A stretch of DNA of 64,000 bases from Cellulosimicrobium protaetiae. Lineage in GTDB: Bacteria > Actinomycetota > Actinomycetes > Actinomycetales > Cellulomonadaceae. The stretch spans positions 806,001 through 870,000 of the forward strand of contig NZ_CP052757.1 of NCBI RefSeq assembly GCF_009708005.2, read 5' to 3'. Of the stretch, positions 53,282 through 64,000 are shown piece after piece (positions within the stretch are counted from its first letter, which is position 1; each line of letters begins with the position of its first letter). Below the pieces are notes generated by a model. The model did not search any database. It had not been told where the DNA came from and saw only the letters and a program-made list of their open reading frames with translations. The position numbers were made by a program, and so were the translations under genes.

Positions 53282-54247
53282 TCAGCAGGAGAGGTTCGCG
53301 CCCGTCGTCGTGCCGAGGATCTGGGTGAACCGCTGGAAGGCGTTGATCCGCGACTGGACCTGCGCCGGGTTGCCGCCGTTGCACTCCAGCGACCCGTTGA
53401 TGGAGCGGATCGTCTCACCGAAGCCGGCGCCGTTCACGATCGCCTGGTGGCCCGTCATCGTGCCCGGTCCGGACTGGGTGTTCCAGTACCAGAGCGCGGT
53501 CTTCCACGCGATCGCCGAGTTCTGCTCCACGAGGTACGGGTTGTTGAGCAGGTCGATGCCGAGGGCGTCGCCGGCGGCCTTGTAGTTGTAGTTCCAGCTC
53601 AGCTGGATCGGGCCCTTGCCGTAGTAGGCGCTCTGGCCGGCGGGGCAGCCGTACGGCTGCGTGGCGTCGCAGTAGTGCGGGTAGTTCGCGGTGTTGATCT
53701 CCTTCACGTAGACCAGGCCGCCCGTCTCGTGGTTGATGTTCGCGAGGAACGCCGCCGCCTCGCGCTTGGCGACCTGGTCGCCGCCCGTCGTCGCGAACGC
53801 GGGGTACGCGGAGAGCGCGTCGACGAGGCCCTGGTAGGTGTAGAACGCGTTCCGGTTCGGGAACATCTGGTTGAACTGCGCCTGCGACACGACGAAGCCG
53901 CTCGGGTCGGGGTCGACCGGACCGGTCCCGCCGCCGCAGGCGCCTTCCGTGCGCCAGACGCCCCACTGGCCGGTGCTGCCGGGCGTCTCGCCCTGGGTCC
54001 ACCAGCCGGCCTTCCAGTTCTGACCGCCGTGCGAGACGACGGCGCCTCCCACGTACACGGAGCCCGCGCTCCACGCGGGGGCGCAGGCCGCGGCGTCCGC
54101 GCGCTGCGCGGGCCCGGCGACGGTCCACGAGAGGGCGCCGAGGAGGGCGAGGGTGGCGGCGAGGAGCAGGGCGACCGGACGGGACGCGCGGCGTGCCGCC
54201 GTGGCGGGCGCGGCAGGGGAGTGCGACGCCGGGGCTCGGGTGTGCAT
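53282..54247 (-). CDS. Secreted GH19 chitinase with N-terminal chitin-binding module
   Basis: The 321-residue protein has a signal peptide (RPVALLLAATLALLGALS, cleavage near residue 53), a CBM5/12 chitin-binding module (about 55-104, with WKAGWWTQGETPG) and a GH19 catalytic domain (about 115-321). The catalytic Glu174 sits in NHETGG, and the second carboxylate is probably Glu183 in VKEIN. AYYGKGPIQLSWNYNYKAAG is the typical family segment. The enzyme cleaves chitin by inversion outside the cell. The ATG has an AAAGG site at about 8 bases. It stands near the secreted LVIVD protein with similar modules, forming a small chitin cluster. Confidence 0.95.
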   Translation of the reverse strand: MHTRAPASHSPAAPATAARRASRPVALLLAATLALLGALSWTVAGPAQRADAAACAPAWSAGSVYVGGAVVSHGGQNWKAGWWTQGETPGSTGQWGVWRTEGACGGGTGPVDPDPSGFVVSQAQFNQMFPNRNAFYTYQGLVDALSAYPAFATTGGDQVAKREAAAFLANINHETGGLVYVKEINTANYPHYCDATQPYGCPAGQSAYYGKGPIQLSWNYNYKAAGDALGIDLLNNPYLVEQNSAIAWKTALWYWNTQSGPGTMTGHQAIVNGAGFGETIRSINGSLECNGGNPAQVQSRINAFQRFTQILGTTTGANLSC

Positions 54248-54380
54248 CGGTGCACCTTTCGTCGGGATCGGGACCGTTCGAGCCTGGGGTGCCGCGTCGC
54301 CGTGGACAACCCCCGTACGAGGAACCCCGTACCCGGGGTTGACGACCGCGGGGGACGGGTGCGAGAGTGGCCGCACCCCC

Positions 54381-54392
54381 GGAAACGTTTCC
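54381..54392. promoter_or_regulatory. LacI-type operator, copy 1
   Basis: GGAAACGTTTCC is a perfect palindrome with the central CG typical of LacI-family sites, 71 bases before the LacI start of the sugar operon. Confidence 0.75.
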
Positions 54393-54413
54393 AGGACTGC
54401 CGAGGCCGACAGT

Positions 54414-54429
54414 CTGGAAACGATTCCAG
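54414..54429. promoter_or_regulatory. LacI-type operator, copy 2
   Basis: CTGGAAACGATTCCAG, a near-perfect palindrome, is centred 35 bases from the first copy. Together they are expected to bind the LacI regulator encoded just downstream, giving autoregulation and control of the whole operon. Confidence 0.75.
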
Positions 54430-54462
54430 AACGACGGTCCTTCGACGACGAGGTGGACGACA

Positions 54463-55560
54463 GTGACGTCATCACGCGCCACGCTGAACCAGGTGGCACA
54501 GCGGGCCGGGGTCTCCCTGGCCTCGACCTCCCGCGCCCTGCACGGGACGGGCGCGAGCCCTGCGATGGTCGAGCGCGTGCGCGCCGCGGCCACCGAGCTC
54601 GGCTACAGCCCCGACGCGATCGGGCGCTCGCTGCGGCTCAAGAAGACGTTCCAGGTCGCGTTCGCCGTCGCCGACATCGGCAACCCCGTCTACGTCGAGA
54701 TGATGACCGCGATCCACGAGGTCCTCGCGCCGCACGGGTACCGCGTCGTCGTCATGACGACGGGGGACACCACGAGGTCGACCGTCGAGCTCGTGCGCAG
54801 CCTGTCGAGCGGGTTCGTCGACGCGATGATCCTCAGCCCGCTGCGCACCGACGACGAGCTCGTCGAGGAGATCCGGCAGGCGCCCGTGCCCGTCGTCGTC
54901 ATCGGCCGCACCCTCGCGGACCGCGGCATCGACTCCGTGTCCACCGACTCGGCGGGCGGGATCGGCGAGGCCGTCCGCCACCTGCTCGACCTCGGACGCC
55001 GCCGCGTCGCGTTCCTCAACGGTCCCCTCGACACCACGCCCGGCGAGGCGCGGCAGCGCGGCTTCGACGCCGCGACGCGCGCGGACGGGTTCACGGGGGA
55101 GCGCATCGACGTCGCCCCCGCGGCCGACTTCACCGTCGCGGCGGGCCTCGCCGCCACGCGCGCGCTCCTCGACGTGCCCGACGGCGGCCCCCGCCCGGAC
55201 GCGATCGTCGCGGCCAACGACCTGCTCGCCATCGGCGCGATCCGTGCCGTGCGCGAGCGCGGGCTGTCCGTCCCCGAGGACGTCGCCGTGACCGGCATGG
55301 ACGACACCGAGATCGGCCGCGTGTTCCAGCCCAGCCTCACGAGCGTCTCGCTCGGCTCCACCGAGCGCGGGCGGATCGCCGCTCAGCTCGTCGTCGACCT
55401 CGTGGACGGCGACGCGCAGGCCGGTCGGCACGAGGCCGTGGGGCCGCGCCTCGTCGTGCGCGAGTCGACCGCGGCGACGACCGAGGCCGGCGCGCCGGCT
55501 GGGGCGAGCGGCGCCGTCGGGCACGACGCCACGGCCACGACGGGGGACGACCAGCGATGA
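54463..55560 (+). CDS. LacI family regulator of the sugar ABC operon
   Basis: The 365-residue protein has a LacI helix-turn-helix (TLNQVAQRAGVSLASTSRAL, residues 6-25), hinge (IGRSLRLKKTFQVAFAVAD) and a sugar-binding domain (about 60-340) with DAIVAANDLLAIGAIRAV and VAVTGMDDTEIGRVFQPSLT. The GTG at 54463 has GAGGTGG upstream and places the DNA-binding domain at the N-terminus; the frame is open further upstream but across the two operators. The stop overlaps the permease start as ATGA, so it is the first gene of the operon. The last 35 residues are a Thr/Gly/Ala-rich tail. Confidence 0.92.
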   Translation: MTSSRATLNQVAQRAGVSLASTSRALHGTGASPAMVERVRAAATELGYSPDAIGRSLRLKKTFQVAFAVADIGNPVYVEMMTAIHEVLAPHGYRVVVMTTGDTTRSTVELVRSLSSGFVDAMILSPLRTDDELVEEIRQAPVPVVVIGRTLADRGIDSVSTDSAGGIGEAVRHLLDLGRRRVAFLNGPLDTTPGEARQRGFDAATRADGFTGERIDVAPAADFTVAAGLAATRALLDVPDGGPRPDAIVAANDLLAIGAIRAVRERGLSVPEDVAVTGMDDTEIGRVFQPSLTSVSLGSTERGRIAAQLVVDLVDGDAQAGRHEAVGPRLVVRESTAATTEAGAPAGASGAVGHDATATTGDDQR

Positions 55561-56519
55561 GCGCCCCGACCCTCGCGGGCGACCCGCACGCCGCTGCGGC
55601 CCGTCGCCCGGACCGCCGCGCCCCGCGCCGGACAGGCGGCATGGCGCGCGCCAAGCGGCGCGAGGCGATCGCGCTCGTCATGCCGTCGCTCCTGCCGATC
55701 CTCGTGCTGAGCGTCGCGCCGCTCGTCATGGGCGTCGCGCTCGCGTTCACCGACGCGCGGCTCGTGCGCCACCCGGACTACCAGTTCGTGGGCGTCGACA
55801 ACTTCGTGCGGCTCGCGGACAACTCGTTCTTCTGGGACTCGTTCCGCATCGGCATGATCTGGGCCGTCTCGGTGACGCTGCTCCAGCTCGTCGCGGCGAT
55901 GGGCCTCGCCCTCCTGCTCAACTCCGGGCTCCGGCTCCAGGGGCTGACCCGCGTCCTCGCGCTCATCCCGTGGGCCATGCCGCCGGTCGTCGTGGCGATC
56001 ATGTGGCAGATGATCTACTCGCCCAACGCCGGGCCGCTCAACGCGTTCCTCGGCGCCCTCGGGCTGCCGGACGACATCAACTGGCTCGCGGACTTCTCGA
56101 CCGCGCTGCCCGCCGTGATCGTCGTCGGGGTGTGGGTCGGCATGCCGCAGACCACCGTGACGCTGCTCGCCGGCCTTCAGCAGATCCCGGACGAGCTCCA
56201 CGAGGCCGCCGCCATGGACGGCGCGGGCGCGTGGCGCCGCTTCACCGCCGTGACGCTCCCGAGCCTGCGACCGATCATCACGTCGATCACCTCGCTGAAC
56301 TTCATCTGGAACTTCAACTCGTTCTCGCTGGTCTACGTGCTCACCGAGGGCGGGCCGGGCGGCCGGACCATGCTGCCGATGCTCTTCACCTACCTGGAGG
56401 CGTTCAAGAACCGGAACATCGGCTACGCCGCCGCGATGGGCGTCGTGCTCGTGGTCGTCGTCGTCCTCCTGCTCGCGATCTACCTGCGGTCGCAGTTCCG
56501 CTCCGAGAAGGAGAGCTGA
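55557..56519 (+). CDS. Sugar ABC transporter permease 1 (CUT1, MalF-like)
   Basis: The 320-residue permease has a basic N-terminus of about 35 residues and six membrane helices. The cytoplasmic EAA loop is EAAAMDGAGAWRRFTAVTLP (about 220-239), which contacts the ATPase. FIWNFNSFSLVYVLTEGGP is typical of the MalF group. It forms the pore with the next gene product. No ATPase gene is present in the operon, so a shared ATPase of the MsiK type encoded elsewhere is expected, as usual in actinobacteria. The start overlaps the LacI stop (ATGA). Confidence 0.93.
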   Translation: MSAPTLAGDPHAAAARRPDRRAPRRTGGMARAKRREAIALVMPSLLPILVLSVAPLVMGVALAFTDARLVRHPDYQFVGVDNFVRLADNSFFWDSFRIGMIWAVSVTLLQLVAAMGLALLLNSGLRLQGLTRVLALIPWAMPPVVVAIMWQMIYSPNAGPLNAFLGALGLPDDINWLADFSTALPAVIVVGVWVGMPQTTVTLLAGLQQIPDELHEAAAMDGAGAWRRFTAVTLPSLRPIITSITSLNFIWNFNSFSLVYVLTEGGPGGRTMLPMLFTYLEAFKNRNIGYAAAMGVVLVVVVVLLLAIYLRSQFRSEKES

Positions 56520-56522
56520 CCC

Positions 56523-57350
56523 GTGCGCGCACTCGTCCGCCCGGCCCAGTACGTGGCCCTGGCGTTCTACATCCTCTTCCTCGGCTTCCCGCTGCTGTGG
56601 CTCATCTCGGCGTCGCTCAAGTCGTCGGGCGAGCTCAACTCGCTGACCGTGAGCCTGATCCCGCAGGACTTCCACTGGGAGAACTACTCCCAGGCGCTCT
56701 CGCGGCAGGGCCTCGTGCGCTCCGCGTGGAACAGCGCGCTCGTCGCGGTCGTCTCGACGATGCTCGTCATCGTCATCGCGCTGCCCGCGTCGTACGTGCT
56801 CGCGCGCCTGCGGGGCAAGATCCGCGCGGCCGGCGTCGGCTGGATCCTCGTGAGCCAGGTGTTCCCGGTGATCCTCATCATCCTGCCGCTGTTCCTCATC
56901 CTGCGGACCATCGGGCTCACGGACTCGCTCGTCGGGCTGACGCTCGTCCACACCACGTACACCCTGCCGTTCGCGCTGTGGATGATGCAGGGCTACGTCT
57001 CCGCGATCCCCGTGGACCTCGAGGAGGCGGGCTCGATGGACGGAGCGAGCCGGTTGACCGTGCTGCGCACGATCGTCTTCCCGCTCCTCATGCCGGGCAT
57101 CGTCGCGACGGCGATGTTCAGCTTCGTCTCGTCGTGGAACGAGTTCTTCTTCGCGCTCGTCCTGCTCCAGTCGCCCGAGAACTACACGCTGCCCATCACG
57201 CTGAAGATGTTCATCGGCGGCGAGGGCAAGGTGGCGCTCGGCCCGCTCGCCGCGGGCTCCGTGCTCGCGGCCATCCCCAGCATCGTCTTCTTCTCGATCA
57301 TGCAGAAGAAGCTCACCGGCGGGCTGCTGTCCGGCGCCGTGAAGGGGTGA
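56523..57350 (+). CDS. Sugar ABC transporter permease 2 (CUT1, MalG-like)
   Basis: The 275-residue permease has six membrane helices, the MalG-type ISASLKSSGEL segment after the first helix and the EAA loop EEAGSMDGASRLTVLRTIVF (about 170-189). The C-terminus QKKLTGGLLSGAVKG is the family standard. Its GTG start lies 3 bases after the previous stop, with AAGGAG upstream. It pairs with the preceding permease in one importer. Confidence 0.93.
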   Translation: MRALVRPAQYVALAFYILFLGFPLLWLISASLKSSGELNSLTVSLIPQDFHWENYSQALSRQGLVRSAWNSALVAVVSTMLVIVIALPASYVLARLRGKIRAAGVGWILVSQVFPVILIILPLFLILRTIGLTDSLVGLTLVHTTYTLPFALWMMQGYVSAIPVDLEEAGSMDGASRLTVLRTIVFPLLMPGIVATAMFSFVSSWNEFFFALVLLQSPENYTLPITLKMFIGGEGKVALGPLAAGSVLAAIPSIVFFSIMQKKLTGGLLSGAVKG

Positions 57351-57396
57351 CCCCCCATGTACCCCCCTGCAACACCCCCACCCGAAAGGTAGAACC

Positions 57397-58686
57397 ATGA
57401 AGACTCGTGGTGCGTCCATCGCCGCATGCCTCACGATCACGACCCTGCTCGTCGCCTCCTGCTCGAGCGGGGGCGGCAGCGGGGACGACGGCGCCGACGG
57501 CGGCCCGGTGACCCTGAAGTTCCAGTCGCTGTCCGACCAGCCGGCCGCCATCGAGGCGACCGAGAAGATCGTCGCGGACTGGAACGAGGCCAACCCCGAC
57601 GTCCAGGTCGAGATCGTGCCCGCGGGCTGGGACGGGATCTACGACAAGCTCATCACGCAGTTCAACGGCGGCGCCGCGCCGGACATCATCCACTACGAGG
57701 CGGCGAGCATCGTGCCCTTCGCCGTGGACGGCTACCTGGCCGACCTGTCGGAGTACATGTCGGACGAGAAGCGTGCCGACATCCCCGAGGGCATCCTCGA
57801 CTCCGTGACGGTCGACGACCAGGTCATCGCGTACCCGACCGAGCTGCAGTCCTACATGGTGTTCGCCAACAGGACGATGCTCGAGGCCGCCGGTGTCGAG
57901 ATCCCGACCGGCGAGACCATGACGTGGGACGAGCTGCGCGAGATCGCGAAGGCCACCACGAAGGACGGCGCGTACGGGCTCGGGTGGGGGCTCGCGAGCC
58001 CGACGGCCGCGTTCATGGCGATGGCCCCCGGCTTCGGCGGCCAGTACTTCGAGGGCACCGGCGCCGACGCGAGCATCACCATCGGCGAGGGCGAGATGGC
58101 CCTGCCGGAGCTCGTCGACGAGATGGCGCACACGGACAGCACGGTGCTGCCGGTGACGCTCACGCAGTCCGGCTCGGAGACGCTCGCGTCGTTCTACGCG
58201 GGCCAGGTCGCGATGACGATCCAGGGCTCGTTCCAGGCCGCGAACATCGCCAACGACGCGCCCGACGGCTTCGACTGGGTCGTGCTGCCCCCGCTCGAGG
58301 GCCCCGACGGCGCCGAGCAGGCCGCCAACCCGCAGACGCTCTCGGTGAACATCGACTCCGAGCACGTCGAGGAGTCCGCGGAGTTCATCGAGTTCTTCAC
58401 CGACACGGAGAACCTCGCCGCGCTCAACGAGGCGGACGCGCTCATCCCGGCCACGACGTCGGCGCAGGAGGCCATGGCGGCCTCGCTCGGCGACGAGAAC
58501 GGCTGGTCGACGATCCTCTCGTCCGGCCAGTTCCTCACGTCCGCGCCGTACCTGTTCGTCGACGCGTACGCGCAGTGGAAGGACACGGTCGCGACGCCCG
58601 CGTACCAGAAGTTCCTCGCCCAGGAGATCGACGCCGACCAGCTCGCGACCGAGCTCGAGGCCGGCTGGGACGAGATCACCAAGTAG
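57397..58686 (+). CDS. Sugar ABC transporter substrate-binding lipoprotein
   Basis: The 429-residue protein has a lipoprotein signal with lipobox VASC (Cys22), a Gly/Ser/Asp-rich linker and an extracellular solute-binding family 1 domain. Recognisable parts are VTLKFQSLSDQPA, IVADWNEANPDVQVEIVPAG, FAGQ-like FYAGQVAMTIQGSFQA and the C-terminal AYQKFLAQEID. Its ligand is not evident; the neighbours suggest a riboside, an ADP-ribosyl compound or an oligosaccharide. AAAGG lies 9 bases before the ATG. A hairpin follows, as after livK, probably raising its level above that of the distal genes. Confidence 0.92.
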   Translation: MKTRGASIAACLTITTLLVASCSSGGGSGDDGADGGPVTLKFQSLSDQPAAIEATEKIVADWNEANPDVQVEIVPAGWDGIYDKLITQFNGGAAPDIIHYEAASIVPFAVDGYLADLSEYMSDEKRADIPEGILDSVTVDDQVIAYPTELQSYMVFANRTMLEAAGVEIPTGETMTWDELREIAKATTKDGAYGLGWGLASPTAAFMAMAPGFGGQYFEGTGADASITIGEGEMALPELVDEMAHTDSTVLPVTLTQSGSETLASFYAGQVAMTIQGSFQAANIANDAPDGFDWVVLPPLEGPDGAEQAANPQTLSVNIDSEHVEESAEFIEFFTDTENLAALNEADALIPATTSAQEAMAASLGDENGWSTILSSGQFLTSAPYLFVDAYAQWKDTVATPAYQKFLAQEIDADQLATELEAGWDEITK

Positions 58687-58752
58687 CACCTTGACCGCTC
58701 GCCACGGGTCCGCGCCCCCACGGGTGCGGGCACGACGAGCACCGAGCAGCAG

Positions 58753-58788
58753 CGGCCGGGGCGGCCGCGACCGTGACCGCCCCGGCCG
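58753..58788 (+). terminator. Intercistronic hairpin after the sugar-binding protein gene
   Basis: A perfect 12-bp stem (58753-58764 with 58777-58788) lies in the 171-base gap between the binding-protein gene and the first ADP-ribosylglycohydrolase gene. It may be a partial terminator. I see no clear promoter in the rest of the gap. Confidence 0.65.
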
Positions 58789-58857
58789 GGAACCGCGGCC
58801 CGTACGGGTCGCACCGGGCGCGACCTGCGCCGTGGAGAGATCGACAGGGAGTGGACC

Positions 58858-60087
58858 GTGACCTGGCTGGACGACCGAGCGGTGGCAGTGATCACCGGAG
58901 CGGCGGTGGGGGACGCGCTGGGGGGCGCCACCGAGGGCTGGACCCCCGAGCAGATCGAGGAGCGCCACGGGGGGCGCGTGACGGGGATCGTGGAGCCCTG
59001 GTACCCGAACTGGCAGGACGCGCGTCCGATCGCGCCCTACCACAAGGGTGACGGGCACATCACGGACGACACCCTCATGACGCGCGCGCTCGTGGAGGTG
59101 TACGCGAAGCGTCGCGAGCACCTCGACGCGTACGCGATGGCCGAGGACCTCGTGCCGCTCATGATCGGCGAGCCGCGCTGGATCCCCGAGCTCGAGTCGA
59201 CCGCGCTGCTGCTGCAGCGCGTGTTCCTCGCCGAGAAGTGGATCGTCGCGCGTCTGCACTACGGGCACGTCGACCCGCGCGAGGCCGGGGTCGGGAACGT
59301 CGTCAACTGCGGCGCCGCGATGTACGTCGCGCCCGTCGGCCTCGCGAACGCCGGCGACCCGCGCGGCGCGTACGCCGAGGCGATCGACCTCACCGGCGCG
59401 CACCAGTCGAGCTACGGCCGCGAGGCCGCAGGCGTCTTCGCGGCCATGGTCGCCGCGTCCGTCGCGCCGGGGGCGACGGTCGACGACGTCGTGCACGCCG
59501 CGCTCGACGTCGCCCACGACGGCACCGCCGCGGCGCTCCAGGCCGTCGTCGAGGCCTTCGACGGCTGGACGACGGCCCCGACGACCGACGAGGAGGAGCG
59601 CGCGCTCGCGCGGCTCGTCCGGGAGACGGTCGCGCCGTTCGACTCCGTCGGTCCCGCCTACCGGCAGATGTCCATGGACGCGCGCCGCCCGTCGCGCACC
59701 AAGTCCATCGAGGAGCTCCCCGCGGCGCTCGGCTTCGTGCTCGGGCACCGCGGCGACTTCCGCGGCGCGGTGCTCGGCGCCGTGAACTACGGTCGAGACG
59801 CCGACTCGATCGCCGTCATGGCCGGCGCGGTCTGCGCGGGCCTCGGCGGGACCGCCGTCGTGCCGGACGAGTGGCTCGACGCGATCGAGGAGGCGAGCCG
59901 CATGGACGTCCGCGAGACCGGCCGCCTCATGGCGTCCGCCGCGGCGGACATCCTCCGCTCCGACCGGGAACGCGCCACGTCGCGCCTGCGCGCGCTCGCC
60001 GAGCTCGGCGGCGCGGCGGTGGACGTCGACGGCCTCGGGCTGCCCGACGGCGCGGCGCAGGCCGCGCGGGCGGGTGACCCGGCGTGA
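58858..60087 (+). CDS. ADP-ribosylglycohydrolase family protein 1
   Basis: The 409-residue protein is an ARH/DraG-type all-helical hydrolase. The two metal-binding clusters are present: GHITDDTLMTRAL (Thr69, Asp70, Asp71) at the N-terminus and NYGRDADSIAVMAGA (Asp314, Asp316) at the C-terminus, which bind the magnesium pair. The family usually removes ADP-ribose from Arg or Ser residues, or cleaves O-acetyl-ADP-ribose, but bacterial homologues in sugar operons have unknown substrates. The GTG start has AGGGAG 6 bases upstream. It is coupled to the second homologue by GTGA. No signal peptide is visible, so it acts in the cytoplasm after import. Confidence 0.9.
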   Translation: MTWLDDRAVAVITGAAVGDALGGATEGWTPEQIEERHGGRVTGIVEPWYPNWQDARPIAPYHKGDGHITDDTLMTRALVEVYAKRREHLDAYAMAEDLVPLMIGEPRWIPELESTALLLQRVFLAEKWIVARLHYGHVDPREAGVGNVVNCGAAMYVAPVGLANAGDPRGAYAEAIDLTGAHQSSYGREAAGVFAAMVAASVAPGATVDDVVHAALDVAHDGTAAALQAVVEAFDGWTTAPTTDEEERALARLVRETVAPFDSVGPAYRQMSMDARRPSRTKSIEELPAALGFVLGHRGDFRGAVLGAVNYGRDADSIAVMAGAVCAGLGGTAVVPDEWLDAIEEASRMDVRETGRLMASAAADILRSDRERATSRLRALAELGGAAVDVDGLGLPDGAAQAARAGDPA

Positions 60088-61559
60088 GGCTCACCTGGGC
60101 CCAGCCCGAGGACCTGCTCGCGCACGAGCTCGTCCAGGCGGCGGCGGAGGGCAAGGACGCCGCGGCGCTCGCCGACGTCCGCGACCGCTGGGTCGCCGCG
60201 GGCGGCGACCCCGTCCCCGCCGTGAGCGGCGCCGGTCCCGTCTCCGCGACCCCGGCGCTCCGTGCGCTCGCGCGGGACCTGCTCGTCGAGCTCGACGCGC
60301 TGCCCGCGGCGCCCGCGCCGGACGAGCCCGACGACTGGGACGCGATCCTCGCCACGCTCCCGGCCGCACCGGACCTGCCGCGCCGACCGGGCGGCGTCGG
60401 TCGGGCGGCCTCGACGGACGTGAGCCGCGACGCCGCGTACGCCGACCGCGTGCTCGGCGCGTGGACGGGCCGTGCGGCGGGCTGCCTGCTCGGCAAGCCG
60501 GTGGAGAAGATCCCGCGCGCGGGCATCGAGGAGATCCTGCGTGCGACCGGCCGGTGGCCGCTCGACCGCTGGTTCACCGCCGTCGGGCTGCCCGACGACG
60601 TCGCCGCGCGCTGGCCGTGGAACCGGCGCAGCGCCCCGACGTCGCTCGAGGAGAACATCGACGGGATGCCGGAGGACGACGACCTCAACTACCCGATCCT
60701 CGCGCTCGCCCTGCTGGAGCGGCACGGGCGCGGCTTCACGACGGACGACGTCGCGCAGCTCTGGCTCGACGCGCTGCCCGCGGGTCGCGTGTTCACGGCC
60801 GAGCGTGCGGCGTACCGCAACATCCTCGACGCGCGGCCGGTGCCGGAGACGGCGACGCACCACAACCCGTTCCGCGAGTGGATCGGCGCGCTCATCCGTA
60901 CCGACGTCCTCGGGTGGGTCTCGCCCGGCGACGTGCGCGAGGCCGCGCGCCTCGCGTGGACGGACGCGCGGCTGAGCCACACGCGCAACGGCGTGTACGG
61001 CGCGATGTGGGCCGCCGCGCTCGCGTCGGCGGCCATGGTCTGCGAGACGGTGGACGAGGTGCTCGACGCTGCGGACGCCGTCGTGCCGCCCGGCAGCCGC
61101 CTCGCCGCCGCGATCCGGCTCGGCCGTGACGCGGGCCGCGGCGGCGACGCGTCCGAGGCGGGCGTGCGTGCCGGCCTCGACGCGATCCACGCCGCCTACG
61201 GCGACCTGCACTGGGTGCACGTGCTCAACAACGCCGCGGTGGTCGCCTACGCGCTCACGGCAGGGCGCGGGGCGGACGGGCGCGGCGACTTCGGCGCGAG
61301 CGTCGCGATCGCCGTCACCGCGGGCTGGGACACCGACTCCGCGGGCGCGACGGTCGGCGGCGTGGTGGGTGCGCTGCAGGGCGTCGACGGGATCGGCCCG
61401 CAGTGGACGCGCCCGCTCGACGGTCACATCGCGACCTCGCTGCCCGGTGGCGAGCAGAGGATCGTGGACCTCGCGGCGCGGACGGTCGCGCTCGCGGCGC
61501 CGCCGGTCGCGGTGGCCGGGGGAGCCGCGCAGGGAGCCACGGAGGAGGCGCACGCATGA
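60084..61559 (+). CDS. ADP-ribosylglycohydrolase family protein 2, divergent
   Basis: The 491-residue homologue has about 110 additional N-terminal residues of unknown fold, then the ARH domain starting DRVLGAWTGRAAGCLLGKP. The C-terminal cluster TAGWDTDSAGATVGGVVGAL (Asp416, Asp418) is standard. In the N-terminal cluster the usual TDDT is replaced by DDDLNY (Asp198-Tyr203), a subfamily variant that probably alters metal geometry or substrate. Together with the first copy it may process two related ribosides. The GTG start overlaps the previous stop (GTGA) and the stop overlaps the ribokinase start (ATGA). Confidence 0.88.
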   Translation: MRLTWAQPEDLLAHELVQAAAEGKDAAALADVRDRWVAAGGDPVPAVSGAGPVSATPALRALARDLLVELDALPAAPAPDEPDDWDAILATLPAAPDLPRRPGGVGRAASTDVSRDAAYADRVLGAWTGRAAGCLLGKPVEKIPRAGIEEILRATGRWPLDRWFTAVGLPDDVAARWPWNRRSAPTSLEENIDGMPEDDDLNYPILALALLERHGRGFTTDDVAQLWLDALPAGRVFTAERAAYRNILDARPVPETATHHNPFREWIGALIRTDVLGWVSPGDVREAARLAWTDARLSHTRNGVYGAMWAAALASAAMVCETVDEVLDAADAVVPPGSRLAAAIRLGRDAGRGGDASEAGVRAGLDAIHAAYGDLHWVHVLNNAAVVAYALTAGRGADGRGDFGASVAIAVTAGWDTDSAGATVGGVVGALQGVDGIGPQWTRPLDGHIATSLPGGEQRIVDLAARTVALAAPPVAVAGGAAQGATEEAHA

Positions 61560-62668
61560 GCACGACGGCGGACGCGGGGCAGGGTGATCGGGTGCCCACG
61601 GGCGCGGCGACCGGTGCGCGGGACGACGTGGCCCCGTCGGAGGACGTCGGGGCCGGGCGGGTCGTGGTGGTCGGGTCGGCGAACGTCGACCTCGTCGTCG
61701 ACGTGCCACGCCACCCCGGCGGCGGCGAGACGATCCTCGGCGGCGACCTGCGCCGGAACCCGGGCGGCAAGGGCGCGAACCAGGCCGTCGGCGCGGCGCG
61801 CGCGGGCGGCGCGGACACGACGTTCGTCGGGGCGCTCGGGCACGACGACGCCGCGGACCTGCTGCTCTCGTCGCTCGACCGCGGGGGCGTGCGCACCGAC
61901 CTCGTGGAGCGCGTCGACGTCTCGACGGGGACGGCGCTCATCACGGTCTCGCCCGACGGCGAGAACGCGATCGTCGTCGCTCCGGGCGCGAACTCGCACG
62001 TGACGATCGGCGCGGCGCAGGCCGAGCGGATCGCCGCGGCGGACGTCGTGCTCGCGCAGCTCGAGATCCCGCTCGACGTCGTGCGCGCCGCCGCGGCGGC
62101 GCGCCGCCCCGGCGCGCTGATGGTGCTCAACGCCGCGCCGTCGCGCGGCCTGCCCGACGACGTGTGGGACACGATCGACGTCCTCGTCGTCAACGAGCAC
62201 GAGGCCGCCGACCTCGCGGGCGTCCTACGTGCGGGCGCGTCTCCCGGTGACGCAGGATCGGCCGACTCGCTGGACAACGACGGCGCGCCGGGCGCTCCGG
62301 GTCCCGAAGAGGCGAGGGCGCACGAGAACGACCCGAGCGGCCTCGCGAGTCTCCTGCTCCTGCGCGTCCCTGCCGTCGTCGTGACGCTCGGCGGCCGGGG
62401 CAGCCTCGTGGCCGAGCGCCTGCCCGGCGGAAAGCTGCTCACCGACGTCTCGGCGATCGCTGTGGAGGCCGTCGACACGACCGGCGCGGGCGACACGTTC
62501 TGCGGCGTCCTCGCCGCTGCCCTCGCGCGCGGCGCGGACCTGCCCGACGCCGCGCGCCTCGCCGCCGCCGCGGGCGCGCTCGCGGTGACCCGGCCCGGGG
62601 CGCAGGACGCCGTGCCCGACGCGGCGGACGTCGTCGCGCTCGCGCACCGGGCCGAGGGCCTCACCTGA
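61556..62668 (+). CDS. rbsK: Ribokinase-like PfkB family sugar kinase
   Basis: The 370-residue enzyme has both PfkB signatures: the N-terminal RNPGGKGANQAVGAARAGG, typical of ribokinase, and the C-terminal DTTGAGDTFCGVLAAAL with the catalytic Asp. VVVVGSANVDLVVDVPRHPG at the domain start also fits ribokinase. It would phosphorylate free ribose, or a related sugar, to the 5-phosphate. It carries an N-terminal extension of about 35 residues and an Asp/Gly/Ala-rich insertion near residues 225-262, which make it longer than the usual 300-310. Its place after two ADP-ribosylglycohydrolases suggests that ribose is released upstream in the pathway. Confidence 0.9.
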   Translation: MSTTADAGQGDRVPTGAATGARDDVAPSEDVGAGRVVVVGSANVDLVVDVPRHPGGGETILGGDLRRNPGGKGANQAVGAARAGGADTTFVGALGHDDAADLLLSSLDRGGVRTDLVERVDVSTGTALITVSPDGENAIVVAPGANSHVTIGAAQAERIAAADVVLAQLEIPLDVVRAAAAARRPGALMVLNAAPSRGLPDDVWDTIDVLVVNEHEAADLAGVLRAGASPGDAGSADSLDNDGAPGAPGPEEARAHENDPSGLASLLLLRVPAVVVTLGGRGSLVAERLPGGKLLTDVSAIAVEAVDTTGAGDTFCGVLAAALARGADLPDAARLAAAAGALAVTRPGAQDAVPDAADVVALAHRAEGLT

Positions 62669-62729
62669 CCGACCTGAGCCACTTCGCAGCACGACCGAGC
62701 GCGGGCCCGCCCGCCGAGGGAAAGGCACC

Positions 62730-64000
62730 ATGACGTACACGTTCGACCCGCTCGTCCCGCGACCGATCGACAAGCCGACCGAGGTCGCGCTCGACGGGGC
62801 GTTCACGCCCGAGCAGTCCCTCGCGCTCGACGAGGCGAAGATCTTCGTCGGCCCGGCCGACCCCGCCCACCGCCCCGCGTGGCGCGAGCGGCTCGCCGCC
62901 TGGCGCGACGACGCGCGCCGCCGGCACGGGTACACGGGCGCGGCGTACGACCGCCCGGAGGCGACGTGGGCCGCGGGCTGCTCGACGGTCGCGCAGGTGT
63001 GGCTCTGGGACGAGCTGCTGTACTCGTTCGACGAGCACCGGTTCACGCCCGAGCGGTTCCTCGCGGACGCGCGCGAGCGGTTCGGCGGCCTCGACGCGGT
63101 GGTCCTGTGGCACGCGTACCCCGTCATCGGGATCGACGACCGCAACCAGTGGGACTTCTACCGGGACGTCCCGGGGATCGTCGACCTCGTGCAGACGTTC
63201 CACGACGCGGGCCTGCACGTGTTCGTCGACTACAACCCGTGGGACGTCGGCACGCGCCGCGGCGACGACGACCTCACCGAGCTCGCCGCCGTCGTGCGCG
63301 ACCTCGGCGCCGACGGCGTCTTCCTCGACACCCTGAAGAAGGCCGAGCCGGAGCTCGTCGCGCGGCTCGAGGCGGCGCGTCCCGGCATCGTCCTGGAGGG
63401 CGAGTCCAAGCTGCCGGTCGAGCGCATCGAGGACCACTCGTCGTCGTGGGCGCAGTTCTTCGCCGACTCGCCCGTGCCCGGCGTGCTGCGCGCGCACTGG
63501 TACGAGCGCCGGCACATGCAGCACCACGTGCGCCGCTGGCACCGCGACCACTCCGAGGAGCTCCAGTCCGCGTGGCTCAACGGCGTGGGCGTCATGGTGT
63601 GGGAGGTCGTGTTCGGCGTCTGGGTCGGCTGGTCGCCGCGCGACGCCGCGACGGTCAAGCGCCTGGTCACGGTGCAGCGCGCGGCGCGGCCGCTGCTGCT
63701 CGACGGCGAGTGGACGCCGCTCGCCGAGCTCGCCCCCGAGGCCGAGGCGGCAGGCGTGTACGCGTCGCGCTGGGAGCTCGACGGCACCACCCTGTGGACG
63801 CTGGTGAACCGCGGCGACTCGGACTACGACGGCCCGCTGCTCCCGGCCGACCAGCCCTCCCGTCGAACCCTGGGTCCCTCCCCAGCCGGGGCGGTCGGTG
63901 GGGAAGAGCCCCGGGCTCGGCGCGACGTGCGGGTGCCGGGGCGGGGGGTCGCCGCGGTGCTGCACGTGGCCGACGGCGCCGGTGAGCCCGACTGGCTGCC
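62730..64000 (+). CDS. TIM-barrel glycosidase-like enzyme, C-terminus cut by the window
   Basis: The frame is open to the last base, giving 423 codons without a stop. The ATG has AAAGG 5 bases upstream and lies 61 bases after the kinase stop. The protein shows a beta/alpha-barrel pattern: GGLDAVVLWHAYPVIGIDDR, GLHVFVDYNPWDVGTRR, LGADGVFLDTL, IVLEGESKL and GVMVWEVVFGVWVGW. Asp in VFLDTL and Glu in LEGES are candidate catalytic carboxylates, as in retaining glycosidases of clan-D type, but no family is assigned. There is no export signal, so it probably acts on imported material. The last 40 residues visible belong to a C-terminal beta domain with a Pro/Arg-rich loop. Confidence 0.75.
   Translation, partial: MTYTFDPLVPRPIDKPTEVALDGAFTPEQSLALDEAKIFVGPADPAHRPAWRERLAAWRDDARRRHGYTGAAYDRPEATWAAGCSTVAQVWLWDELLYSFDEHRFTPERFLADARERFGGLDAVVLWHAYPVIGIDDRNQWDFYRDVPGIVDLVQTFHDAGLHVFVDYNPWDVGTRRGDDDLTELAAVVRDLGADGVFLDTLKKAEPELVARLEAARPGIVLEGESKLPVERIEDHSSSWAQFFADSPVPGVLRAHWYERRHMQHHVRRWHRDHSEELQSAWLNGVGVMVWEVVFGVWVGWSPRDAATVKRLVTVQRAARPLLLDGEWTPLAELAPEAEAAGVYASRWELDGTTLWTLVNRGDSDYDGPLLPADQPSRRTLGPSPAGAVGGEEPRARRDVRVPGRGVAAVLHVADGAGEPDWL

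Follow-up and report, generated by a model that had tools for sequence, protein, structure and literature searches.

A ten-gene actinobacterial operon that may take up and degrade a ribosyl conjugate of a 3-hydroxy acid

Results and discussion

What would an operon import that joins a carbohydrate transporter to two homologues of ADP-ribosylglycohydrolase (ARH)? We addressed this question for a locus of Cellulosimicrobium protaetiae that begins at position 54,463 of a 64,000-nucleotide stretch of contig NZ_CP052757.1 (hereafter, the window) and continues to its end. The original prediction, made from the letters of the window, listed a LacI-type repressor, an importer, two ARH homologues, a ribokinase homologue, and a barrel enzyme, all of which are present on the plus strand. 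It had also proposed reading past the window. The genome under study comprises 4.78 Mb in two contigs, and the bases past the window end, fetched as locus L004 (extended coordinates), completed the barrel gene and revealed genes for a CaiB-type coenzyme A (CoA) transferase and a CitE-like lyase. The window truncates the operon: the unit consists of ten genes, not eight, and the two genes past the window end change its meaning.

Our favored reading, to which we assign a probability of just under one half (approximately 0.47), is a self-contained catabolic operon that imports a furanoside, probably a riboside, of a 3-hydroxy acid, cleaves it, phosphorylates the ribose, and splits the acid via CoA. 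The gene content, co-conservation, predicted fold, catalytic residues, and operator-like sites given below are direct results; every reaction and substrate is one that we infer. As an operon type the locus is ordinary, and what is notable is which genes it combines, how widely it occurs, and how poorly the label "ADP-ribosylglycohydrolase" fits. In the open-licence literature, no title or abstract start describing this gene set was found among the matches listed for the terms used.

Operon structure and importer

The features of the operon are listed in Table 1. Three junctions in the window overlap as predicted, lacI/permease 1 and ARH2/kinase by ATGA and ARH1/ARH2 by GTGA. Such coupling does not hold for the other junctions in the window, which are separated by 3 (permease 1/permease 2), 46 (permease 2/binding protein), 171 (binding protein/ARH1), and 61 bases (kinase/barrel). 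ATGA overlaps recur at the barrel/CoA-transferase and CoA-transferase/lyase junctions. A family-model scan of the locus detected no Nudix, macrodomain, nucleotidase, oxidoreductase, dehydrogenase, hydratase, or isomerase gene among the ten genes.

An SBP_bac_1-type binding protein and two MalF/MalG-type permeases place the importer in the CUT1 type. The operon has no ATPase gene, and two MalK-type (OB_MalK-bearing) genes lie elsewhere in the genome; the gene content bears out the predicted LacI-controlled carbohydrate importer without its own ATPase. Driven by a MalK-type ATPase encoded elsewhere, the binding protein and permeases would import a small glycoside in which a furanosyl group, most probably ribosyl, is combined with a carboxylic acid. 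An attempt to name the aglycone via the binding protein failed, its best PDB relatives being diverse CUT1 binding proteins (best E value 3.4e-22).

Table 1. Features of the operon and its upstream region. Coordinates are those of the window unless stated otherwise.
Feature	Coordinates	Strand	Remarks
LacI operator 1 (GGAAACGTTTCC)	54381..54392		putative; near-palindrome upstream of lacI
LacI operator 2 (GGAAACGATTCC)	54416..54427		putative; near-palindrome upstream of lacI
LacI-family repressor	54463..55560	+	PF00356, PF13377
CUT1-type permease 1 (UgpA/MalF-like)	55557..56519	+	family models
CUT1-type permease 2 (MalG/GlcU-like)	56523..57350	+	family models
Solute-binding lipoprotein (SBP_bac_1/8)	57397..58686	+	family models
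ARH1, ARH homologue	58858..60087	+	metal ligands kept, loop NCGA-x-MY
ARH2, ARH fold	60084..61559	+	~115-residue N-terminal extension, loop NG-x-YGAMW
Ribokinase homologue (PfkB)	61556..62668	+
Barrel gene	62730..64862 (window ends 64000); L004 10730-12862	+	GH13-like barrel + beta domain + FGE-like domain
CaiB-type CoA-transferase	64859-66079 (extended); L004 12859-14079	+	past window end
CitE-like lyase	66076-66939 (extended); L004 14076-14939	+	past window end

Conservation of the gene set

Searching 297 genomes of the order for the barrel protein found it in 17 (own genome included), representing 8 of 95 genera. Sixteen of the 17 barrel loci fetched from the 16 other genomes carry the whole operon in the same order, with the kinase missing in four (L035, L037, L038, L041); the 17th, L043, is a lone second barrel copy. 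A scan of a named genome collection with an ARH2 profile yielded 238 relatives, from which the best 80 were retained; at least seven of the 80 are records already in the barrel set, and many come from congeneric species. Nine genes (kinase aside) occur together in 69 of the best 80 loci and all ten in 60, some of the remaining loci being cut by contig ends. The binding protein and ARH2 were found in all 80, permease 2 and ARH1 in 79 each, permease 1 in 78, lacI in 76, the CoA-transferase and the lyase in 74 each, the barrel gene in 73, and the kinase in 64. Since 69 of 80 loci hold the same nine genes, the grouping is not due to chance. Hosts include Cellulosimicrobium, Promicromonospora, Oerskovia, Georgenia, Cellulomonas, Microbacterium, Arthrobacter, Amycolatopsis, Saccharopolyspora, and Nocardiopsis. 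When the flanking genes were clustered, the only one to recur beyond four genera was an esterase-type gene, seen at 17 loci from 7 genera, and it does not overlap the operon in the window genome.

Individual loci depart from this pattern. In the Microbacterium loci L118, L121, and L123, the CoA-transferase and lyase genes precede lacI, and neither a kinase nor a barrel gene was detected; L121 has two more ARH-type genes behind ARH2. The operon of L109, titled Sphaerisporangium cinnabarinum, is about as close to that of the window as Cellulosimicrobium's own (for example, ARH2 92% and CoA-transferase 99%), and this assembly may be mislabelled.

A wider operon family was found with an ARH1 profile (E ≤ 1e-60), which matched 62 of the 394 genomes of the class, spread over 16 of 138 genera, as well as 88 of 121 genomes of one Streptomyces-like genus, the matching genomes measuring 5.9–12.1 Mb. 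Among 18 of the 62 ARH1 loci that were fetched, ARH2 is present in 17, two further homologues (ARH3 and ARH4) in 16, the CoA-transferase and lyase in 16, an adjacent importer in 12, the kinase in 10, and the barrel gene in four. The full set of twelve genes is found in L212 and L213: lacI, two permeases, the binding protein, ARH3, ARH4, ARH1, ARH2, kinase, barrel, CoA-transferase, and lyase. The genomes of two carriers are as small as 1.8 and 1.3 Mb, and their loci (L218, L219) have a G + C content of 47% and 45%.

In L208, L209, and L211, from the large-genome genus, the set lies between glutamate synthase (gltB) and lgt-trpA-trpB genes (family models were run for L209 only), and because of this position they probably represent the Streptomyces locus, with SCO2028–SCO2031 of S. 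coelicolor corresponding by gene order to ARH3-ARH4-ARH1-ARH2. In the available text of PMC9411070, SCO2028–SCO2031 are four consecutive genes among eight uncharacterised DraG/ARH homologues of S. coelicolor and are treated as putative ADP-ribosyl hydrolases; four consecutive homologues are also what the Streptomyces-like operon contains.

ARH homologues

ARH1 and ARH2 match PF03747 and retain the binuclear metal ligands. Ordinary ARHs carry a loop N-G-x-x-M-R with a role in substrate binding, and this hallmark of ADP-ribosyl hydrolases is absent from both proteins: M-R is replaced by M-Y in ARH1 and M-W in ARH2. The ARH1 loop reads MY in 77 of 79 sequences and MF in two. The ARH2 tryptophan is found in 17/17 and 29/29 aligned rows, the latter from the folding alignments (29 of 78 ARH2 and 30 of 73 barrel sequences). 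The pattern NG-x-YG-x-MW matched 56 of 78 ARH2 sequences, with 22 unmatched; here and below, pattern counts include unmatched sequences that were not inspected individually. In the wider family (n = 17), seven ARH2 sequences have Phe, two have Trp, and eight were unmatched. Thirty ordinary ARHs extracted from the order showed MR in 16, MK in one, the operon type in one, and no readable motif in 12. In a tree, ARH1 and ARH2 of the operon form separate clades (support 0.91 and 1.0, respectively), the ARH1 clade nesting there within the ordinary ARHs. The operon proteins differ from the DraG/ARH family (DraG, ARH1, ARH3, MJ1187) by the change of the loop Arg to Tyr or Trp, by their own clades, and by the absence of an ADP-ribosyltransferase gene from the operon. 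A third ARH gene of the genome (G000:C1:988087-988974; L001, L005) has an ordinary GNGALMR loop, and its Pfam-matched neighbours are OmpA, HSP20, and a beta-helix/CBM5 protein, with no sugar catabolism genes among them.

The original prediction had suggested import of a riboside or ADP-ribose derivative, its cleavage and phosphorylation, possibly as a scavenging route for ADP-ribosylated material. The importer, glycoside cleavage, and ribokinase motifs hold up by gene content, whereas the ADP-ribose part does not. Scavenging of ADP-ribose or ADP-ribosylated proteins would suit two ARH-family genes with intact metal sites beside a ribokinase homologue, as well as the ARH3 proteins of the wider operons, of which at least 11 of 16 retain M-R. 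We nevertheless regard it as very improbable, given the M-Y/M-W loops of ARH1 and ARH2, the lack of Nudix, macrodomain, and nucleotidase genes, and an importer of the oligosaccharide (CUT1) type. Purified SCO2028 and SCO2030, probably of this operon type, also had no detectable activity on U-alpha-ADPr, the one substrate concerned, according to the available part of PMC13036486. Still more remote is a system built around ARG that undoes phage ADP-ribosylation, of the kind put forward for other ARG neighbourhoods (PMC9503650). Actinobacterial ARG genes do occur in such predicted systems, but the ten genes include none of the Nudix or WYL regulators, phosphatases, or chaperones with which those systems are described in the available part of that report, and we rejected this explanation on gene content.

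In our favored reading, ARH1 with ARH2 would hydrolyse the C1 bond of a ribofuranosyl group using two metal ions, by the chemistry that ARHs apply to ADP-ribosyl bonds but with no requirement for ADP.

CoA-transferase and lyase

The two genes past the window encode a CaiB/BaiF-type CoA-transferase (PF02515, 402.9 bits) and a CitE/HpcH-type lyase (PF03328, 104 bits). The motif GLADG-x-AS, whose Asp is catalytic in family III CoA-transferases, was found in 68 of 74 CoA-transferases, six being unmatched by the pattern. The lyase likewise carries motifs of its family, and its best PDB relatives are annotated as acyl-CoA lyase beta chains (8khl, 9nzb); a pattern for the last CitE motif missed 68 of 73 sequences and was not used. 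Both genes belong to the operon and are more widely kept than the barrel gene, and their presence implies a carboxylic acid in the cargo. CitE-type cleavage requires a 3-hydroxy group on the acid, and since the operon has neither a dehydrogenase nor a hydratase, family chemistry implies that the acid must arrive with the cargo already 3-hydroxylated. The freed acid, a compound like malate, citramalate, citrate, or hydroxymethylglutarate, would be loaded with CoA by the transferase and its acyl-CoA split by the lyase into acetyl-CoA and a 2-keto acid. The same order of CoA-transferase and CitE-type lyase is known from itaconate/citramalate degradation (Ict/RipA-RipC/Ccl) and malyl-CoA lyase routes, from which the operon differs by having no hydratase gene and by a lyase scoring 151 against the RipC cut-off of 375.

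These two genes also bear on an alternative, a generic riboside or nucleoside salvage like that of E. coli yegTUV, in which the CoA-transferase and lyase would serve an unrelated need. ARH, kinase, and importer genes do occur without the pair in relatives from Mycolicibacterium and Deinococcus, in a Nonomuraea locus (lacI, importer, four ARHs, kinase), and in yegTUV itself. However, the CoA-transferase overlaps its neighbour at 66 of 69 junctions and the lyase at 64, and each gene is retained in 74 of the 80 loci and in 16 of the 18 wider ones, including those of the 1.3 and 1.8 Mb genomes, which makes this explanation improbable. In its logic, yegTUV is the closest described relative by analogy, combining a transporter, an ARH homologue (YegU), and a PfkB sugar kinase (YegV) in a repressed operon; it differs in its MFS transporter, single ARH, and GntR-type repressor (GgaR, also YegW), and in having no CoA-transferase, lyase, or barrel enzyme. 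The available text of PMC10819704, on which this comparison draws, describes the function of yegTUV/GgaR as unresolved and links it to ADP-glucose and glycogen.

Kinase and identity of the sugar

The predicted ribokinase-like kinase is supported by its motifs, GGKGAN and QLE being present in 64/64 orthologues, GS-x-N-x-D in at least 62/64, and D-x-T-x-AGD in 63/64. These motifs form the ribose and ATP sites of ribokinases, and the enzyme would convert ribose to ribose 5-phosphate. It is the sole strong ribokinase match in the genome under study. A further ribokinase match (272–297 bits) is encoded in each of the four genomes whose operon lacks the kinase. We considered this as support for ribose and dropped it, since 11 of 12 kinase-bearing genomes (all but G172) also have one or two further matches. 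Because kinase-bearing genomes share it, this pattern permits the ribose reading and gives it no support.

The sugar could instead be another 1,2-cis pentofuranose (arabinofuranose, apiose, or a branched sugar acid), with the CoA-transferase acting on an acid within the sugar rather than on an aglycone. On a Sphingopyxis plasmid, genes for a TonB receptor, a ribokinase, a barrel/FGE protein, a GH127 homologue, and a CoA-transferase are consecutive, the GH127 homologue occupying the place of the ARH pair; a Spirosoma barrel/FGE homologue adjoins a GH28 gene; and ribokinase-like kinases take several pentoses. Against these stand the ribokinase motifs kept in 64/64 sequences, the action of characterised ARHs on ribosyl bonds, and the absence of an oxidoreductase or isomerase from the operon, and we consider this substrate unlikely, if worth keeping in view.

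Barrel protein

The 710-codon barrel gene joins a GH13-like domain to a C-terminal domain resembling the formylglycine-generating enzyme (FGE). The structure model has the (beta/alpha)8 fold of GH13/clan GH-H, in which an Asp nucleophile follows strand 4 and a Glu acid/base follows strand 5. Residues D200 and E225 are invariant (17/17 aligned rows), and model strands 192-195 and 217-220 precede the residues matching them. The FGE-like fold is likewise predicted; the FGE end is present in all 17 alignment rows and its GFR-x motif in 72 of 73 sequences. Formylglycine-generating enzymes have conserved active-site cysteines, and no invariant Cys was found in the 17-row alignment. These fold comparisons are based on families among the matches listed. 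The protein resembles GH13/clan GH-H glycosidases in its predicted fold and in the places of Asp and Glu, and differs in lacking the GH13 Arg, in the fused FGE-like domain, and in that no Pfam family recognises its barrel domain. Among 396 sampled genomes of the phylum, the full barrel profile matched solely the own genome, five others having the FGE domain alone. In a plasmid collection, six records were found for ARH2 and three for the barrel protein. The diverged second barrel/FGE gene of L043 (9568-11601) has a divergent lacI, a GH4 gene, and a further CUT1 importer as neighbours, with no ARH hits. In the favored reading, the protein would remove an alpha-linked sugar unit inside the cell, a job for which ARH3 and ARH4 may be the equivalent elsewhere.

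Proposed route and its weighing

Together these steps would form a closed route in which the cargo is imported, a sugar unit removed, the ribosyl bond hydrolysed, the ribose phosphorylated, and the acid loaded with CoA and split at a C-C bond; its products would be ribose 5-phosphate, acetyl-CoA, and a keto acid. Several results weigh against it. The kinase scores 254.2 bits against the TIGR02152 ribokinase equivalog, below the cut-off of 299.65 (a strict cut-off, passed in 0/16 related genomes), and is absent from 16 of 80 loci (some cut by contig ends) and 8 of 18 wider loci; with the kinase missing from many loci, ribose is not proven. The CoA-transferase reaches 217 against an NCBIfam cut-off of 700 for its best equivalog and 224 against 442 for its best subfamily, and the lyase 151.3 bits against 375 for citramalyl-CoA lyase RipC (NF038242). 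Because both miss every NCBIfam cut-off, the acids on which they act are not assignable; the pair is also lacking in two of the 18 wider loci (L215, L224) and in the Nonomuraea locus. GH13 enzymes have an invariant Arg two residues before the nucleophile, where the barrel protein has an invariant Phe198 (17/17); because of this replacement, moderate model confidence around the catalytic residues (block pLDDT 66–70), and low Foldseek TM-scores (0.29–0.48 for the amylases listed), the barrel may do something other than glycoside cleavage. Finally, pairwise distances of the ten proteins correlate (r = 0.82–0.96, with no outside control gene), which fits a unit travelling together and equally plain common descent.

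A broader claim, which we advance tentatively and with more doubt than belief, is that the ARHs of these operons, including the four of Streptomyces (probably SCO2028–2031), are not ADP-ribosyl hydrolases but new small-molecule furanosidases cleaving a common, as yet unnamed conjugate of a ribosyl group with a 3-hydroxy acid. The operon would then be the catabolic route for that conjugate in much of Actinomycetota, yielding the same three products, and the GH13-related FGE fusion a further new glycosidase family. If true, a function would be given to a widespread uncharacterised ARH group (ARH1 in 62/394 genomes of the class), these genes would no longer count as presumed erasers of ADP-ribosylation, and the operon would point to a natural compound that has yet to be named as a nutrient. 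A direct test is possible with one binding protein and with the gene cluster in a genetically tractable Streptomyces.

Putative LacI operators

In 75 of 76 operons, the 200 bases upstream of lacI contain a near-palindrome around AAACGTTT, most commonly TGGAAACGTTTCCA; 56 of these operons have two or more copies. Exact GGAAACGWTTCC occurs in the 4.78 Mb genome solely at the two sites before this lacI, and the reversed control pattern of the operator core had zero matches in the genome. With one mismatch allowed, the window contains four strand matches, all at these two sites, compared with an average of 0.37 in shuffles. Because the exact core is confined to this position, the repressor seems, from sequence, to serve this operon alone. 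The architecture suggests that a ligand would release LacI from the two putative operators.

Flanking elements

Two GH19 chitinase genes flank the operon, at window positions 53282-54499 (minus strand) and L004 17812-18705 (minus strand). Likely relatives lie upstream and downstream (nine and seven places) in nine loci labelled Cellulosimicrobium, Oerskovia, or Sphaerisporangium. A paired inverted repeat of approximately 20 bases, with half-sites 33 bases apart, was found at L004 14971-15023, 17697-17749, and 18662-18714. Its half-site (two free positions, at most two mismatches) had 92 matches in the genome versus three for the reversed control; it is a dispersed extragenic element, one copy of which lies directly behind the operon.

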